This document shows positions 1,353 to 49,001 of a stretch of DNA of 56,825 bases, piece after piece (the first letter of the stretch is position 1; each line of letters begins with the position of its first letter). The notes below the pieces were generated by a model. That model was not told where the DNA came from, did not search any database, and saw only the letters and a list, made by a program, of their open reading frames with translations. This stretch comes from Candidatus Gastranaerophilales bacterium (GTDB lineage Bacteria; Cyanobacteriota; Vampirovibrionia; Gastranaerophilales; UBA9579), in assembly GCA_028689995.1 (NCBI GenBank), contig JAQVCB010000009.1:1-56825 (forward strand). The letters run 5' to 3'. The position numbers were made by a program, and so were the translations under genes.

Positions 1353-1740
1353 ATGGAAAATCAGTTTAATAATAATCAGAATAGTGATGAAATTATAATA
1401 GATTTTAATAAAATATGGCGAATAATCTGTTATAGAAAAAGTTTAATCATAACATGTTTTGTGTTAGCTATTATTTTATCGGGATTATTAACTATATTAA
1501 TGCCTAAAAAGTATGAAACTGAAGCTAAATTACTGATAAATAAAAGTAGTTCCACGAACCTTGCAGATATAAATCCTTTTATTATATCTGATGCAGTTGA
1601 TATTGGTGGTGGAGGAATGTCAAGTCTGCTGGGCGGTTCCTCAAATCTTAGTAATGAAATAGAAATATTAAAATCTCCGCTGGTTTTGGACCCTGTAATT
1701 AAAATTAATAACCTTAAATATAAAAAAGGAAAAAAAACAG
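1353..1740 (+). pseudogene. Truncated Wzz/chain-length determinant (N-terminal half only)
   Basis: Aligns with the 17229..18590 protein (KYE.EA.LLINK..STNLADINPF...LGGS..L.NE.EILKSPLVL.PVI...L.YKKG) and then diverges abruptly after KKGKK. Confidence 0.85.
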
Positions 1741-2399
1741 GCTGTCCTTTGCCAGGACTTTTCGGAATTTTGCAGACTTAGCCGTTTCTCGCCCGTTGCT
1801 AGTATCTTAGCCTGATTTTTGCGCTTCCGACCTGACGGGAAAATTGCCGGATTGTGTCCACTTTTCCGCATTATTTTTTCAAAAAAATTGACGTTAAGTT
1901 ATTTAAATTTGCACCTGTATTATAGATATATTAATGGTCTTGCCGAGGTGGTAAAAAATAGGACATTTTTTCTCTAAGTCCGCACGTCGGAAAAAGTCGG
2001 AAATCTTACTTTATGTTTCTGGGCGGAAGTTTAAATACTTTTTAAAAGAGCTAATACGCTAATATTCTAAAAAACTGCCATTTTATTTTTATAATTGATT
2101 CGAATCAGAGCTTTCAAAACCGAAGTGATAATTACCAATCTTCCTGTAAGTTACATGGGCAGATAATTTAGGCTTAAGATGGATGAGCTTGTGATAAATT
2201 TTGCCAATTTTTAATGGGTATTTAACCGGTAGTTAATAGGATTTTAATCACTGGTTAAAACTCGGAAGCAAGTTTAGGAAAAGCTGCCTATTTTTTCAGG
2301 ATTTATAATCTTTTATTCAGACATAAATGAACACAAATTACTCTAAAACAGTTCCATTCTGAGAATTCCGATTTAACATTGACAACAACATTAGATTAG

Positions 2400-4436
2400 A
2401 TGGAGTCGTCAATGAATAACGGCATTTTAAATGTACAAGATTGCTGGCTTGATGTTGATATTGTGGCAGAGCTGAAAGGAATAACTGAAAGAGCAGTCAG
2501 ACTTGCAATAAGGAAAAAGAAATATATTACTAAAGCTTGTAACACCAGAGGAGGTAAGAGTTACAAGATTTTGTTATCTTCGCTGGAGCCTAAAATCCAG
2601 CAGAAATATTTGGATGAATATTATAAAGATCTTGTTCTATCAGAATCCCAGCAAGAACTTATCAAGATTGAACCAAAGCAAGAAAAGATTATACCTGAGC
2701 ATATAAGGAAAATTGCATTAGCAAGATTGGACCTTTTAAAACTCTGGGATAGGTTCAGAAGAGAGCGTGGAGCAGTTGGAGCTGCAAATAAAGACTTCCT
2801 GCAGTTATATAATTCGGGAGAATTTCACGCAAATATATTTCAAACGATAGGTAAGGTTTCAATAGGTACACTTTATAGGTGGAAACAGTCACTGGGTACG
2901 CTTACCTGCGATGACTGGACAAGACTCGTTCCTGAATACAATTATTCAAGTGATACAGAATATAGAACCAGCCTTACTGATGAGGAGATCAGAATCTTTA
3001 TGAAACTCCTCCTTAATCAGAATCGCTTCAGTGTTGGAAAAGCAATAAGCCTTACAAAACATATCCTGCAGACAAGAGGCATAGATATTACAGCAAAAGA
3101 AGTTACTTTTAGAAGGTATGCTGAGTGGTTTAAAAAATATAATTATGATAAGTGGATTTTATCTCGTGAAGGCCAGAAGGCATTAAGAGATAAAGTCGAA
3201 CCATATATAGTTCGTGATGCTTCAATACTTGATGTCGGACAAATTTTAATCTCAGACGGACATAAATTAAACTTTCAAGTAATAAATCCTTTTAACGGAA
3301 AACCCTGCAGAGCAACATTAGTTGGATTTCTCGACTGGAAATCGGCAGGTCTTGTTGGATATGAAATTATGCTCGAAGAATGCACGCAAAGTATTGTCTC
3401 TGCCTTAAGAAACTCAATTTTAAGACTTGGCAAGATTCCGGATATAGTTTATCAAGATAACGGCAAAGCATTCAGGGCAAAGTTTTTTACAGGAGATAAA
3501 AACTTTGAGGAGTTAGGATTTAACGGAATTTACGGAAAGCTTGGAATCAAACCGGTCTATGCAACTCCATATAACGCAAGGGCAAAAGTAATAGAAAGGT
3601 TCTTCCTTGAGTTTCAAGAAAGCTTTGAAAAGCTTTTACCTTCATACATAGGCTCATCAATAGAAAATAAGCCAGCTTATTTAAAGCGAAATGAAGAACT
3701 ACATAAAGAAATTCATAACGGTTATGTACCGACTATTCAAGAAGCAATTCAGCTTATTGAAACTTGGCTTGAGTATAAACACAGCCAGCCCTGCCCGAAT
3801 GTTCCTAATAAAACAATAGCTGAAGTTTTAGCAGAAGTTAAAAAGCAGGAAATAGATGAACAGGAGCTTGATGATCTAATGCTTGCGATGGAAATAAAAA
3901 CCATAGGCAGAAACGGAATTAGATTTTTAAAGAGTGATTACTTTGATGATTCTCTTTATGGCATAAGGGATAAAGCAATCATCAAATATAGTCTATTTGA
4001 TATTAGCTACATAAAGGTTTATTCAATGAAAGGTGAATATTTATGTAAGGCATACAGGGTTATGCCCACTCATCCAATGGCTCAACATCTTGGAGATATT
4101 AAAGACATTGAAGATTACAAGCAAAAAATAGTTAAACAGAGACAGCTCAGAAATAAAACACTAAAAGCGGTTAAGCAGTACTTTAAAGCAGAGGACATTA
4201 ATATGATTGAAAAGCATCTAATTGATGATTTACACCAAACTCCTGTTATTCAGGAAACACCAAAATTAATTCCAAAAATTATACCGAATCAAGTTTTAGC
4301 AAGACCGATATTTAAGTCAAAATTTGAAAGATTTGAATGGCATTTAAAGCAAGGTTGTATAAATCAAGCTGATAGGAGGTGGGTTGAAGTCTATAAAAAA
4401 TCAGATGAATACACAATGATATATGGAGAGGCCTAA
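2400..4436 (+). CDS. MuA-like DDE transposase
   Basis: DDE candidates ISDGHKLNF, VYQDNGKAFRAK, ARAKVIERFFLEFQ; N-terminal HTH; Mu transposase C-terminal layout. Confidence 0.92.
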   Translation: MESSMNNGILNVQDCWLDVDIVAELKGITERAVRLAIRKKKYITKACNTRGGKSYKILLSSLEPKIQQKYLDEYYKDLVLSESQQELIKIEPKQEKIIPEHIRKIALARLDLLKLWDRFRRERGAVGAANKDFLQLYNSGEFHANIFQTIGKVSIGTLYRWKQSLGTLTCDDWTRLVPEYNYSSDTEYRTSLTDEEIRIFMKLLLNQNRFSVGKAISLTKHILQTRGIDITAKEVTFRRYAEWFKKYNYDKWILSREGQKALRDKVEPYIVRDASILDVGQILISDGHKLNFQVINPFNGKPCRATLVGFLDWKSAGLVGYEIMLEECTQSIVSALRNSILRLGKIPDIVYQDNGKAFRAKFFTGDKNFEELGFNGIYGKLGIKPVYATPYNARAKVIERFFLEFQESFEKLLPSYIGSSIENKPAYLKRNEELHKEIHNGYVPTIQEAIQLIETWLEYKHSQPCPNVPNKTIAEVLAEVKKQEIDEQELDDLMLAMEIKTIGRNGIRFLKSDYFDDSLYGIRDKAIIKYSLFDISYIKVYSMKGEYLCKAYRVMPTHPMAQHLGDIKDIEDYKQKIVKQRQLRNKTLKAVKQYFKAEDINMIEKHLIDDLHQTPVIQETPKLIPKIIPNQVLARPIFKSKFERFEWHLKQGCINQADRRWVEVYKKSDEYTMIYGEA

Positions 4437-4483: not shown

Positions 4484-5197
4484 ATGAAGAAAGTATTTGT
4501 AAAAACTCAAAATGTTAAAAACCTGATAAATATGATGAATAACCTTCAAAATAGAGCAGAAGGAGTTCCAGGGTTTGGTCTGGTGTATGGAGAACCCGGC
4601 CTTGGTAAAACACAAGCCATACTTTGGTGGGTGATGCAGAATGATGCTGTTTTTATCAGAAGCACAAAGCTTATGACAGGTAGATGGCTATTAGAAGAAT
4701 TAATTGAGGAATTGGGTGAATATCCGGGTAATAAAAATTCTGATCTTTTTAAACAATGCGTAAATCAATTAAAAGAAACTCCAAGAACAATTGTTATTGA
4801 TGAAGTTGATTATTTAACAGGAGAGTCTCAGGTTATTGAAACTTTAAGAGATGTACATGACAAGACTGGAGTTCCAATAATACTTGTTGGAATGGCAATG
4901 GCAGATAAAAAGTTAATCAGATATCGACATTTATACGATAGAATTTCTGAAAAACTTAAATTTGAAGAATTCAGAAAAGAAGATATTAAAGATATAGTCA
5001 ATCAATTAAGCGAAGTGAAAATGACTGAATGTGCCATTGACTATATTTACAATAATACCAGCAGATTTAGGCAAATAGTAAAACTTATAAACAAAGCAGA
5101 GCAAATTGCTTCTGCAAATGAAATAAATATGATTGATGAAATAACACTAAAGGAGTTTGTACCGTATGATTCAGCAGAAGATTATAAAGCTGGCTAA
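4484..5197 (+). CDS. MuB/TniB-like AAA+ transposition ATPase
   Basis: Walker A GEPGLGKT, Walker B TIVIDEVDYL; directly downstream of muA. Confidence 0.92.
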   Translation: MKKVFVKTQNVKNLINMMNNLQNRAEGVPGFGLVYGEPGLGKTQAILWWVMQNDAVFIRSTKLMTGRWLLEELIEELGEYPGNKNSDLFKQCVNQLKETPRTIVIDEVDYLTGESQVIETLRDVHDKTGVPIILVGMAMADKKLIRYRHLYDRISEKLKFEEFRKEDIKDIVNQLSEVKMTECAIDYIYNNTSRFRQIVKLINKAEQIASANEINMIDEITLKEFVPYDSAEDYKAG

Positions 5198-6788
5198 AGG
5201 CTTAAATAATTTTACGTTTAATGATGTTTCAGTATTACTGGAGAATGACGAATCTTCTATAAATCAAGCTCTTGATCAACTTGTTATAAGCAATCTGTTA
5301 AAAAAACGAGATAATCTGTATTTTTACGTTGATAAATGTGAATTAAAAAGAAACAATTTGAATCCTAAAATTCTCGAAGATATTAAATTATTTAAAAAAG
5401 ATGATGAGTTTTATCAGGAATATAGCAGATTATCAGAAAAACACAGGAAAAAAGTTGATAAATATATTCAAATTCTTAAAGCTTCAAAATTTTTAAGAGG
5501 TAACGCTTTAATAGAATTTATAGAGCTTTGGAATAAGAAGCATCCTGATTTGAAAACTTCATATCACAGCGTAATTAGAGCTAGAAATGAATACAATCAC
5601 TATGGCTTAAAAGGGCTTACAGCCAAATATTCTTATCGGTATATAAAAAAAATTAAAAATCTTTCTATCTATAATCCGAAGTTTATTGATAAGTATTTAT
5701 CCAGTAATATTCCAAGTTTAGAGGAATGTTATGAAAAATTAAAAATAGAGTTTTTAAAAGAATCTTCTAAAAATAAATTGATGGATTTTCCTGAGCCTGA
5801 ACTTTTTATGAAAAAATTGTATGAAAAATATTCAAAGTCAGAGATTGATTTTTATAGATCAAGAAAAAGACAAACTAATAATTTAAATATCAATAAGATT
5901 AGTTTTAATGATGCTGCTTATAAATATCTTGAATTTATAAGAAACAATCTTAAGCATTCGACATATAGAGGCTATCTGTCAAAAGTAAGAAACTATCTCC
6001 TACCGTATTTTAAGGATCTCCCTGTAGAAAAAATAACGATAAACTTAATAAATAACCTTGCATTAAATCTGCAGGAATCTGGAGCCTCAAATAGCAAGGT
6101 TAATAAGATAGTTAATCTTACCAGAAATATTGTCAATGAATACAATAAGGAAATATTAAAAGCTGAAAATCTCTCAGATAAATTCAAATATGATAAAAAG
6201 GATCGGTATAAAACAATCAAGGTTTTATGCCTTAATGAGATCCAAAAGTTATTATTGACAGCAAAGTCTTTCAATACTGAGTTTTATACATTTTTATTCA
6301 TACTCATATCTACAGGACTCACTAAAGGAGAGCTTCTAGCATTAAGCTGGGATCAAGTAGATTTTACAAATAAAATTATTACTGTCGACAGATATTATAC
6401 TAATAGCAAAATTTGTAAGCATAAAACAAAGTACAGTATAAGAAACGTAAATTTGCCTGATGACATCTTAAATCTACTAGAAAATATAAATAAAAAGCAA
6501 TCACAAAGAATTAAATATGTTTTTAACGACCCAAGTAAACTCAAATCTGAAAATTTTTCCATTTGTGACCTCAATAAGATTACTACATGTGCTGGATTAG
6601 AAAAAATAACATTTAATATTCTTAGGGATACTTATGGAGCATTGTTAATTCATAAAGGCTTTTCAATTGAGTATGTCACCCTGCAACTCGGGCTTTATTC
6701 TGTTGACAATACATACAGCAAATACAAGCATTTATTGGCTCAAGAACAATTTAAATTAAGTTCTTTAATATATGGTAACAATGAATAG
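5166..6788 (+). CDS. Hybrid protein: winged-helix-like N-terminus, MuA-type DNA-binding region, degenerate tyrosine recombinase
   Basis: KHRKKVDKYIQILKASKFLRGNALIEFIELWNKKHPDLKTSY aligns with the prophage MuA; C-terminus has STGLTKGELLALSWDQVDF, NILRDTYGALLIHKGFS, LGL...YSKYKHL. ATG at 5166 preferred to track start 5157. Confidence 0.82.
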   Translation: MIQQKIIKLAKGLNNFTFNDVSVLLENDESSINQALDQLVISNLLKKRDNLYFYVDKCELKRNNLNPKILEDIKLFKKDDEFYQEYSRLSEKHRKKVDKYIQILKASKFLRGNALIEFIELWNKKHPDLKTSYHSVIRARNEYNHYGLKGLTAKYSYRYIKKIKNLSIYNPKFIDKYLSSNIPSLEECYEKLKIEFLKESSKNKLMDFPEPELFMKKLYEKYSKSEIDFYRSRKRQTNNLNINKISFNDAAYKYLEFIRNNLKHSTYRGYLSKVRNYLLPYFKDLPVEKITINLINNLALNLQESGASNSKVNKIVNLTRNIVNEYNKEILKAENLSDKFKYDKKDRYKTIKVLCLNEIQKLLLTAKSFNTEFYTFLFILISTGLTKGELLALSWDQVDFTNKIITVDRYYTNSKICKHKTKYSIRNVNLPDDILNLLENINKKQSQRIKYVFNDPSKLKSENFSICDLNKITTCAGLEKITFNILRDTYGALLIHKGFSIEYVTLQLGLYSVDNTYSKYKHLLAQEQFKLSSLIYGNNE

Positions 6789-6797
6789 GATAAATTT

Positions 6798-8432
6798 ATG
6801 ATTAAAGAAAAGATATTAAAACTTGCAAAAGTGCTTAATACTTTTACTGTTGACGAAATGGTAACTGTGTTAGAAGAAACAGAAAATCAAATAGGGCATT
6901 ATATAGAAAGCTTAGTCCAAGCTAATTGTTTAAAAAAGGTATCAGAGAAACAGTATTTATATTTAAAAAATCCCAATAATCGTCTTCTACAACAAAAATT
7001 AAAGTTTGAAGCTTTACTTAATACTTATAATGAAGAATACAAGATAAGAGTTTTAGAAGAAATCAGTAGCTCAAAATTAATGGGTGAATATTTAAAATAT
7101 CAGCCAAAAACAAGACAAAAAATTGAGAAAAATTTAGTTTTATTTAGATTAACTGAGAATCTCAATAATAAAGAATTTAGAAGCTTTATTATTAGCTGGA
7201 ACCAAAGATATCCGGATCAGAGAGTATTAAGATGTGACACAAATCTAAGAAATACTTACAATAATTATGGTTTAAGAAAATTTCTCGAAAAATTTTCTTC
7301 CAAATCGTTGCCAAAACATGCTTTATTAGGAATATATTTTCCTCAATTTATTAATATGTACTTCTCTAAAAAAGCACCCAGTGTAGAAGTTTGTTTAGAT
7401 AAACTTAAATTAGATTTTTTAAAAAACCAAAAACGTATTGAAGGCAATTATTTTCCTGACTACAAGTTTTTTATAAAAAAGCTGAATTCAGAATTTATGC
7501 CGGAGGAAATAGAGTATAACAGGTCTTACAAAAGAAGAAGTGTTTGCTCAATAACTTTTCAGGAAGCAGCTTTTGAATATTTAAATAAAATAAGAAAAGA
7601 AAAAAGTTTTAAAACTTATAAAAGTTATTCTTGTCATATAAAAAAATACAGTTTCCCTTTTTTTCAAAACATTAAAATATTAGATATTACTCCCGAAATA
7701 TTCAATATTTTTATATTAACCTTAAATAAAGAAAAACACTCAACCATAACAATTAGAAGCATAATTAATCATACGTTAAATATTATCAATTTATATTGTC
7801 AATTATCAAGAAGGGATTTAAATGTAAATATTAAAAATGAGAAAGCTAAAAAGCAAATCAGAGTTTTAACAGATAAAGAAGTTTCAACGCTATTAGCTAT
7901 TTCTCAGCAAATGTACCCGGACGTATATGCGTTCATATCCACAATCCTATCAACAGGATTAAAACAGTCAGAAATTCTTGCTATAAGTTGGGATAAAATA
8001 GATTTTAAAAATAAAAGAATTTTGATTGATGGCTATTACTTTGATAAAAAAATTAAAAGTTATACTAAAAAAGGTTTTATCAGGTATATAGAGATTTCTG
8101 ATAATCTTGCTGAGGTGCTAAAAGATTGGAAAAATAAATATCCAAAGAACTGGAAATATGTTTTTGTAACTAAAGCAAGCGATATAACTAAAAATTTTAC
8201 ACGTAACAGGCTAAATCCTATTACTCAAAGAGCTGGAATTGAAAACCTACTCTTAGATAATTTGCGAGATACATACGTGGTAAATCAAATTAAACAAAAT
8301 ATTTCTATAATTTATATTGCCCAACAACTTGGCTACACTTCCGCTGAATACGTTTGCAGAAGATATAAAAGTTTTTTAGAAAAATATACAATTCAGTTAA
8401 GCAGTACCCAAAATTGTCTTGAAATAATTTAG
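6798..8432 (+). CDS. Second hybrid MuA-type DNA-binding / degenerate tyrosine recombinase protein, paralog of the preceding gene
   Basis: Same layout: MIKEKILKLAKVLNTFT start, KTRQKIEKNLVLFRLTENLNNKEFRSFIISWNQRYPD, then STGLKQSEILAISWDKIDF, DNLRDTY, QLGY...RRYKSFL. Confidence 0.8.
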   Translation: MIKEKILKLAKVLNTFTVDEMVTVLEETENQIGHYIESLVQANCLKKVSEKQYLYLKNPNNRLLQQKLKFEALLNTYNEEYKIRVLEEISSSKLMGEYLKYQPKTRQKIEKNLVLFRLTENLNNKEFRSFIISWNQRYPDQRVLRCDTNLRNTYNNYGLRKFLEKFSSKSLPKHALLGIYFPQFINMYFSKKAPSVEVCLDKLKLDFLKNQKRIEGNYFPDYKFFIKKLNSEFMPEEIEYNRSYKRRSVCSITFQEAAFEYLNKIRKEKSFKTYKSYSCHIKKYSFPFFQNIKILDITPEIFNIFILTLNKEKHSTITIRSIINHTLNIINLYCQLSRRDLNVNIKNEKAKKQIRVLTDKEVSTLLAISQQMYPDVYAFISTILSTGLKQSEILAISWDKIDFKNKRILIDGYYFDKKIKSYTKKGFIRYIEISDNLAEVLKDWKNKYPKNWKYVFVTKASDITKNFTRNRLNPITQRAGIENLLLDNLRDTYVVNQIKQNISIIYIAQQLGYTSAEYVCRRYKSFLEKYTIQLSSTQNCLEII

Positions 8433-46200: not shown

Positions 46201-47088
46201 TCAATTTTCGTCATACCACCTCAGCAAATGTTTTGAGACTTCCTGTATAATCTCCTCATCAATAGGTGAATCGCTTAACTTTGCGGCTTTATCCGCTTTA
46301 ACGATAAGTTTACTTAAGACTCTTGTATTTCCCAGTGATTCTTCAAGAAATTTATCTGAAAGATCCAAAGCATCAGGCAAAGTCCTTAAAATAATTTTCC
46401 TGATATCTGTAAGATCAAGAGGCTTTAGCTCTTTTAGCACACCGATTCTTGAATAAAGCTGTTCATATTGACCTGTTTTACCTCTTAAATTCCCAAGAAG
46501 TCTTGGCATCCCCACAAGCATAATACCCACTCCAGCCTTGTCATAAATTCTTCTTAAAAGCTCCAGTGCTTTATATGGAAGATGTTCAGCTTCATCAACT
46601 ATGATCAAACGGTTTGAGTTTTTGAGCTTTTTGACAATATCGAGCATCATTGAATAGATATTTCCAATGCCTTCAAACCCCAATCTTTTATGAAGTTCAC
46701 CAAATAAAATCTTTGGAGTATATCCAAGATCTGCTTCAATAAGGATTACATCTGTATTAAGTTTTGCATATTCTCTTACGGTAACAGTTTTTCCAAGTCC
46801 AGCCCTGCCGATACAAACACCGATTTCGCTGTTAATGTGGCACATTTTTGCAACATCAAAGACATTATCAACTACCTTTGTCTGAATAAATTCTGTTCTA
46901 CAAATATCTTTGCGCTCATATTCCCTTAATAGGAAATTATTTACCGCATCATTAATTTTATCCACTTTGCCTTTGTATTTGCCGTTTAGCCATAGACTTA
47001 TGGTTGTATAAGAGATTCCTGTAGCTCTTGCAACTGCATGCGAGCTAACTGAATTTTCCTCCATAAACTTTTTTAATTCGCTTCGCAT
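46201..47088 (-). CDS. MuB-like transposition ATPase with N-terminal HTH
   Basis: VCIGRAGLGKTVTVREYA, LIIVDEAEHLPYKALELLRRIYDKAGVGIMLVG; HTH AVARATGISYTTISLWLNGKYKG. Confidence 0.93.
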   Translation of the reverse strand: MRSELKKFMEENSVSSHAVARATGISYTTISLWLNGKYKGKVDKINDAVNNFLLREYERKDICRTEFIQTKVVDNVFDVAKMCHINSEIGVCIGRAGLGKTVTVREYAKLNTDVILIEADLGYTPKILFGELHKRLGFEGIGNIYSMMLDIVKKLKNSNRLIIVDEAEHLPYKALELLRRIYDKAGVGIMLVGMPRLLGNLRGKTGQYEQLYSRIGVLKELKPLDLTDIRKIILRTLPDALDLSDKFLEESLGNTRVLSKLIVKADKAAKLSDSPIDEEIIQEVSKHLLRWYDEN

Positions 47089-49001
47089 AAAATACCTCTC
47101 TCCAAATCTGCTCGTTTATCGCTTTCAAAAAGATAAATTTTTCGTTTTTTCTGCTCTTTAGGTACAAAGGGTTTGAGATCATAACTGCCTGCAAGCTCAA
47201 GTTCTCTTGCCTGTCTTACTGCTTTATCCATCTGGTTATTTGATAGTTTCATTAATTTTGGATTAAGCTCATAGTTTCTCTGATCAATCGATCTCTTAAG
47301 GTCAGCAACCTTTTTGCTCAGTTCAACTTCATCAACATTAGCTCCAGTTTTTGCAGCTTTGTAATCTGCTTTCTTGAGTTTTGTAGCTTTTTTAAGGATT
47401 GATTTCTCAATATCAGTTTCAGTAAGAGCTGGGACAAGCTCCATAATATTGCCTTTGCCGATAAATTTGTCTGTATTTGCAGTAAATACCCAGCACTCCT
47501 GATAAGCATCAATATCTCGTCTTATATAGACTTTTTCCCCCTTAAATCCACTCATCCAGCCAGACCAATAGTTGACTCCAAGTTGCGAATCTCTAATTCC
47601 GTTTCTTCCTATAGTGACAATTTTTGAGCTTCTCATGCAGAAAAGCATTAGCGAGTCTTTTGGAACGGTTTTCATTAAGGTAAATTCTTTAGCAAACAGC
47701 TCATCAGGGGATTTGCCACGAAGCTTTTTACTTTTCGATGGCAATTTATTCATAATATTTTCAATAAAGTCATCAAAAGTTAACTTGAATTCTGTAAAAG
47801 TAAGAAGTTTATTTCCGCTTATCTCATTTTTAAGTTTTTCAGGACGTTCAACTACATTTCCGCCTCTGTAACCGACAACATGCTTTGACAGTAATTCTTT
47901 TACCTTCTTAAAATCTCTTTCAATTGGTTTTGTCTGAGCGTTATAAGGTAAGGAAAAGCGGGCTTCCACACCTAGAAGCCCGAGCATTGGGGTTGAGTGG
48001 TGGTCAGATAATTTGGTCCTTCCTCCTGCAAAATCCTTTGCTCTATAATCCTTACCGTTATCGATATAAATTTCGTCGGGTAAACCATACTTTAATGCCG
48101 AATAATAAAATGTTTGGAATATATGATCTGAGTTTCCGCTTTCTTCGTGCAATAGCCAGCCCAGCCATTTATTGGATTTAAGATCTCTCCAGGCTGTAAC
48201 CCAAGGGAAGCAAACTTTGCCTTCCTTATTTATTACAGCAACATCAATTTGAGCATGATCCGATACCCAGCACTGGCCAGACCTCACATTTGAATAATCA
48301 CGTTCGATATAATTAGCATACTTTTTATTCCATTTAGAATATCCGTATCTGGCAAGATAGATAGACTGCTTTGGAACTTCTCTTTGCAGTTTTCTCAGGA
48401 AAGTTCTTGCTGATGGGAAGTCATTATTTTTTGCACCAAAACATCCTTTTACAATCCGGTGACAGCTTTCGGCAGTCGGTGCGCCTTCTAGTAGATAAAG
48501 CTGTTTAAAATATTCTATCCACTCCCTTTGCAGCTTCGTTTTACCCGAATTCCCATGCGGATTACTGATTAATCCTGCAATTCCATAAAGCTCATATTTT
48601 TTCCTGATTTCCATTAATCTTGAATAAGAGGTTCTAAAATCAGGATTTTGGATATTCCAGTCATCAATATAATCCATTAAAGCCTGACCTCTGAGGTTCT
48701 TACTTGTATTTAAAATATGGATATATTTATCAGCCAGCTTTCTTGATTTCTCATCTGCAGAGTTATATAGCATCAATCCTTCAGCCAGATCATTATCTGA
48801 TTTTGAATACAGATTCTGAAATTCAACAGGCAAAGATGAAAGCATGACTTTATAGATATGATTCTTTTTCCTTTTAGAGACTTTAAAAACATACTTTCCT
48901 GAAGCACAGTTTTTTCTGAGAGTTTCAGCTTTTATGCCCAAAAGTTCACAGGCATTGTCCTCTGATATCCAAATATTAAGATTTCTTTCGGTGTTTTTCA
49001 C
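47073..49001 (-). CDS. MuA-like DDE transposase
   Basis: CWVSDHAQIDVAV, EIYIDNGKDYRAKDF, AQTKPIERDFKKVKELL; N-terminal HTH ACELLGIKAETLRKNC. Confidence 0.94.
   Translation of the reverse strand: MKNTERNLNIWISEDNACELLGIKAETLRKNCASGKYVFKVSKRKKNHIYKVMLSSLPVEFQNLYSKSDNDLAEGLMLYNSADEKSRKLADKYIHILNTSKNLRGQALMDYIDDWNIQNPDFRTSYSRLMEIRKKYELYGIAGLISNPHGNSGKTKLQREWIEYFKQLYLLEGAPTAESCHRIVKGCFGAKNNDFPSARTFLRKLQREVPKQSIYLARYGYSKWNKKYANYIERDYSNVRSGQCWVSDHAQIDVAVINKEGKVCFPWVTAWRDLKSNKWLGWLLHEESGNSDHIFQTFYYSALKYGLPDEIYIDNGKDYRAKDFAGGRTKLSDHHSTPMLGLLGVEARFSLPYNAQTKPIERDFKKVKELLSKHVVGYRGGNVVERPEKLKNEISGNKLLTFTEFKLTFDDFIENIMNKLPSKSKKLRGKSPDELFAKEFTLMKTVPKDSLMLFCMRSSKIVTIGRNGIRDSQLGVNYWSGWMSGFKGEKVYIRRDIDAYQECWVFTANTDKFIGKGNIMELVPALTETDIEKSILKKATKLKKADYKAAKTGANVDEVELSKKVADLKRSIDQRNYELNPKLMKLSNNQMDKAVRQARELELAGSYDLKPFVPKEQKKRKIYLFESDKRADLERGILCEAN

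Follow-up and report, generated by a model that had tools for sequence, protein, structure and literature searches.

A winged-helix protein joining a MuA-type DNA-binding region to a degenerate tyrosine-recombinase fold is a candidate target selector of Mu-type transposons in Candidatus Gastranaerophilales

Two consecutive genes of a Candidatus Gastranaerophilales bacterium encode proteins in which a MuA DNA-binding region is fused to an integrase fold. They lie in a stretch of 56,825 nucleotides (assembly GCA_028689995.1, contig JAQVCB010000009.1; hereafter the window), in an operon with the order muA (2400–4436), muB (4484–5197), C1 (5166–6788) and C2 (6798–8432), all on the plus strand. We use the name C for the third component encoded after muA-muB, C1 and C2 being the window copies. 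With moderate confidence, we propose that C1 and C2 are non-catalytic target selectors or adaptors of the MuA-MuB transposition module.

The muA product was a MuA/TnsB-like DDE transposase (phrog_310 transposase, 1e-87; Mu-transpos_C, 3e-11). Its DDE residues were intact, with D286, D353 and E399 invariant in the family alignment. The muB product was a MuB/TnsC-like AAA+ ATPase (phrog_296 DNA transposition protein, 4e-48; AAA_22, TniB) in which Walker A and B were present. The window thus contains the hallmark of Mu/Tn7-type systems, a DDE transposase with an AAA+ partner. The open reading frames of C1 and C2 are intact, and that of C1 has two possible starts, 5157 and 5166 (543 and 540 aa, respectively). 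The later of these, an ATG, is preferable, since C2 (544 aa) begins alike and since this position falls inside muB. Upstream of muA, only the 5' part of a wzz gene (chain-length determinant; 1353–1742, plus strand; Pfam Wzz, 8e-13) was present, cut by the element. This fragment matched intact wzz genes of the same genome up to approximately residue 128–133, corresponding to base ~1742, where the similarity stopped at a TGT. Judged by this comparison, the left end of the window element is probably the TGT at 1743, which places the window copy within a protein gene and not beside a tRNA gene. The putative left end (5'-TGTCCTTTGCCAGGAC...) and the region upstream of muA, together free of coding genes, span 1743–2399 (plus strand). 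No inverted copy of the left-end region was found for the right end of the window copy, which was not located in the intergenic stretch after C2 (8433–8640) either. A search for ACA plus a duplication gave no significant match, so no target duplication was identified for this copy.

C1 and C2 were 33% identical over their full length and had the same domain order of winged helix, MuA Ibeta/Igamma region and tyrosine-recombinase (YR) fold. In C1, the winged helix comprises residues 1–58 (5166–5339), where the N-terminal model matched winged-helix structures. It is followed by the MuA Ibeta/Igamma-like region (5421–5858) and by YR core-binding and catalytic folds with degenerate residues (5904–6743; PF14659, PF00589), all on the plus strand. 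The MuA of a prophage in the window (47073–49001) shared 53 of 146 residues with C1 (36% identity, 81 bits, E = 3e-20) and was 25% identical to C2 over 136 aa (E = 5e-7). BLAST found no match between C and the operon's own MuA. The C profile aligned in register with the family of this MuA over Ibeta-Igamma (hhalign, E = 3.9e-6). PF09039 (Pfam HTH_Tnp_Mu_2, MuA Igamma) was matched individually by 12 of 22 C family members (best 7e-5), and the best PDB sequence match of the C profile was the MuA Igamma structure 2ezh, a weak match (E = 0.06). The C-terminal half matched PF00589 at 2e-15 (C1) and 1e-18 (C2). In an AlphaFold model of C built on 28 relatives (mean pLDDT 79), the predicted C-terminal fold had YR structures as its best Foldseek matches in the PDB, namely Tn1549 integrase, XerA and lambda Int (best E = 1e-10). 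The N-terminal half alone gave winged-helix matches only and no MuA; the Ibeta/gamma assignment is therefore based on sequence and profiles. The original prediction of a MuA-YR fusion, encoded in one operon with muA and muB, was thus borne out, including the YR fold of the C-terminal half. Its expectation of a MuA-like N-terminal half was upheld by sequence and profile homology.

The catalytic residues were compared in an alignment of 20 full-length C proteins with seven ordinary integrases from the same bacterial order. All 20 C proteins had Arg-I replaced (by T, S, K or N) as well as the His of HxxR (by N, D, V, I, L or S), whereas Arg and His were present in all seven ordinary integrases; the original prediction had not remarked on this loss. 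At the positions RI-K-H-RII-H-LGH-Y, C1 reads T-K-N-R-D-L-Y and C2 reads K-T-D-R-D-Y-Y; each of the seven control integrases reads R-K-H-R-H-H-Y. Among the other residues, Arg-II was kept in eight C proteins, LGH in three and the nucleophilic Tyr in 16, both window copies among the latter; the Tyr was changed to Phe in the other four. Since Arg-I and His are lost family-wide, site-specific recombination by C is unlikely, and by its residues the YR domain is catalytically dead across the family while the fold persists. C had originally been put forward as a candidate new recombinase family, acting by tyrosine-recombinase chemistry and resolving cointegrates, for example. The fold recovered by Foldseek, the frequent retention of the nucleophile and the occasional retention of Arg-II would suit such an active enzyme, but the loss of two catalytic residues from every C protein, the Tyr to Phe changes and the complete sets in the controls argue strongly against it. 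We rejected an active recombinase or resolvase on these grounds and regard it as highly improbable; a role in non-catalytic DNA recognition is more likely.

Homologues of C were spread across Candidatus Gastranaerophilales and found only there. No homologue turned up among 59 genomes sampled from the rest of the phylum, and none of the phage or plasmid records covered 80% of C1. C lay directly 3' of muB in complete loci, and operon position and overlap were conserved in the loci examined. The N-terminal winged helix was common to all 64 distinct third genes collected, which had sizes of ~220–230, 243–245 and 509–572 aa, apart from a few cut by contig ends. Three C-termini occurred behind it: Ibeta/gamma with the dead YR, Ibeta/gamma alone, and an unrelated region of ~165 aa. 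Approximately 20 of the 64 third genes belonged to the ~220–230-aa class with the unrelated C-terminus (C'). This class was absent from the HMM used, and its similarity to C was confined to the winged helix (hhalign, E = 2e-16 over 57 columns). A constant winged helix with an exchangeable tail is a build as in the target selectors TniQ/TnsD. No description of the fusion or of the elements was found in the literature searched (open-licence papers) or in the libraries, and to that extent the earlier statement that no described family with this exact architecture was known was correct. One locus (L039, 9961–11005) contained two A-B-C modules back to back, with their left regions facing each other within ~1 kb. 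In relatives, muA was flanked on its left by a small gene on the minus strand, which appeared Mor-like by eye and had no match in Pfam.

Transposon ends were located in one subfamily (L042–L072) by searching for recurring end sequences (left 5'-TGTAAAGAAACAGGACAATACAG..., right 5'-TGTTAATTAACATGAGAAAGCAG...). The ends had the form TGT...ACA, and 7 of 12 end pairs were flanked by matching 5-bp duplications. The original prediction of a Mu-type transposon was correct. Alignment boundaries were misleading as indicators of insertion ends, since cargo is swapped at gene borders, and the motifs TTCCGACTT and TGTCTGACA recurred but could not be tied to ends. Complete elements of the subfamily were ~14–20 kb in size, and several carried defence cargo between their ends (GmrSD-type restriction enzyme, AbiH, RT-protease, protein kinase). 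Related loci carried Fic, type I and IIG restriction genes and helicases. In L042 (9783–10211) and relatives, the gene after C encoded a protein of 142 aa similar to the small subunit of phage terminases (HTH, DUF1804). The subfamily with a 509-aa C had two to three tandem left-end-like units of ~210–240 bp upstream of muA (L073, 3150–4000; L055, 4430–4700; L075), as if insertion had been repeated at the same site.

Insertions of the subfamily with located ends clustered downstream of tRNA genes. Flanks of 400 bp or more were available for 48 left ends; 29 of these had a tRNA gene within 400 bp (37–380 bp), and its 3' end faced the element in all 29 cases. Right ends had such a neighbour in 6 of 32 cases, always in the same orientation. 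In a control band at 800–1200 bp, tRNA genes occurred at 2 of 47 left and 0 of 31 right ends, and with approximately 40 tRNA genes per 1.9 Mb the expected adjacency was <1%. The enrichment beside tRNA genes is overwhelming, although a p-value is not to be taken literally as related insertions are not fully independent. The insertion flanks differed everywhere, and at least 10 tRNA types were used. Elements with a 243-aa C lacking the YR were ~1 kb from a facing tRNA gene (n = 2). As seen in the left flank of L071, one insertion falls in the final ~37 codons of a gene that by eye looks like a large serine recombinase, beside tRNA-Met. The window copy, inside wzz, differs from its tRNA-adjoining relatives; our guess is that this element, having two C paralogues, uses another target.

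Mu-like prophages of Gastranaerophilales often had tandem sets, an A-B-C' set with a C' of ~225 aa followed by an ordinary prophage-type MuA-MuB set, which suggests separate machines for integration and for replication. Tandem sets were seen in L241, L242, L245, L246 and L247 (also in L220–L239 and L248), with the A-B-C' set near the tRNA-side end. A facing tRNA gene was within 2.7 kb of muA in 15 of 18 A-B-C' phage loci, and the opposite orientation occurred in none. No tRNA gene was nearby in three prophages with the ordinary MuA/MuB set only (two loci and the window's own). The window prophage (18600–51000) had a Mu portal, terminase, MuA/MuB on the minus strand and an S24 repressor, and the nearest facing tRNA genes were 7 kb upstream of its MuA. 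Since phages whose ~225-aa C' lacks both Ibeta/gamma and YR also adjoin tRNA genes, tRNA homing accompanies the A-B-C module and can occur without the YR tail. We therefore rejected this homing as proof that the YR reads tRNA genes. The reader might instead be the winged helix, MuA/MuB or a host feature.

Two other roles of C were weighed against target selection. C may be a regulator that, through its winged helix, Ibeta/gamma and dead YR, occupies the muA promoter or the ends of the transposon and restrains (or stimulates) transposition, in analogy to the Mu repressor, which competes with MuA at Mu internal sites. C does carry a module of the MuA end-binding type and a winged helix, and a conserved sequence just upstream of muA is common to the window, L038 and L047. 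We nevertheless think a regulator unlikely: the C gene closes the A-B-C operon and runs in its direction instead of diverging from it, and target selection accounts better for the exchange of C-termini behind an unchanging winged helix, for the large, multi-domain protein and for the pairing of paralogues. Moreover, a selector would still be needed for tRNA homing. Somewhat less probable still is an architectural subunit of the transpososome, in which Ibeta/gamma would hold the end sites and the dead YR would bend or bridge DNA without any choice of target. MuA Ibeta/gamma binds end sites, and dead YR folds are still able to bind and bend DNA, both of which suit such a subunit. The phage and 243-aa versions, however, lack one or both of Ibeta/gamma and YR, and the Ibeta/gamma of C is closer to the prophage MuA than to the MuA of its own operon.

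Target selection remains the best reading of the domain make-up, the operon, the constant winged helix, the tRNA-side insertion and the precedent of TnsF. In the proposed mechanism, C would dock on MuB and/or MuA, the conserved machinery, through its winged helix and bind the chosen DNA through its variable part. MuB would be loaded at the DNA bound by C, so that MuA inserts nearby, comparable to TniQ/TnsD or TniQ-TnsF in Tn7-like elements. Two C paralogues in one element, as in the window, may serve two kinds of target.

Phage Mu and the C elements have the A and B families and 5-bp duplications in common, and the MuA Ibeta/gamma module is reused in C. Mu inserts near-randomly and is not known to have such a third gene, in contrast to the C elements with their defence cargo and clustering beside tRNA genes. 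Insertions of Mu are more frequent in the flanks of pre-tRNA than in the mature tRNA sequence (PMC7350765), and part of the tRNA bias could therefore come from MuA/MuB. Tn7-like elements repeatedly use tRNA genes as att sites, and the TniQ/TnsD and type V-K CAST systems are, like the C elements, TnsB/TnsC-type machines inserting beside them (PMC11406308). Their targeting is by TniQ/TnsD or a guide RNA, whereas C has another domain make-up. The nearest precedent is TnsF, an inactivated tyrosine recombinase and third-party selector for a TnsB/TnsC machine, which is required for insertion of the Tn7-like Tn6022 into comM; the relative in the Tsy transposon is active (PMC10293859). Zinc fingers at the N-terminus and two core-binding domains characterise TnsF, whereas C has a winged helix, MuA Ibeta/gamma and nearly the whole catalytic fold. 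TnsF works through TniQ at comM, whereas C relatives insert beside tRNA genes and the window copy in wzz. A search for TniQ gave no match in 11 genomes, although the control genomes gave no match either. C was not classed as TnsF because the N-terminal domains and the target differ and TniQ was not found, with the same blank controls. The best structural match of the C-terminal half of C, the Tn1549/Tn916-type integrase, is active and has its own arm-binding domain, whereas C is without the catalytic residues.

Tentatively, and with less confidence than in the selector role itself, we suggest that C represents an apparently TniQ-free, so far undescribed class of selectors. A constant winged-helix adaptor with swappable DNA readers, one of them a dead integrase on MuA Ibeta/gamma, would direct the A-B machine of Mu type to sites 3' of tRNA genes, both in defence-island transposons and in Mu-like phages. 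In the phages, which carry an ordinary MuA/MuB set as well, the two sets would perhaps share out integration and replication between them. If this is true, landing guides evolved from dead tyrosine recombinases on at least two occasions, as TnsF in Tn7-like elements and as C in Mu-type elements, where the fold was grafted onto a DNA-binding module of the kind used by the transposase itself. The elements would then be a Mu-type system with a site preference and without a guide RNA, and would offer natural interchangeable targeting modules on one machine. They would also explain the travel of defence genes in uncultured Gastranaerophilales.
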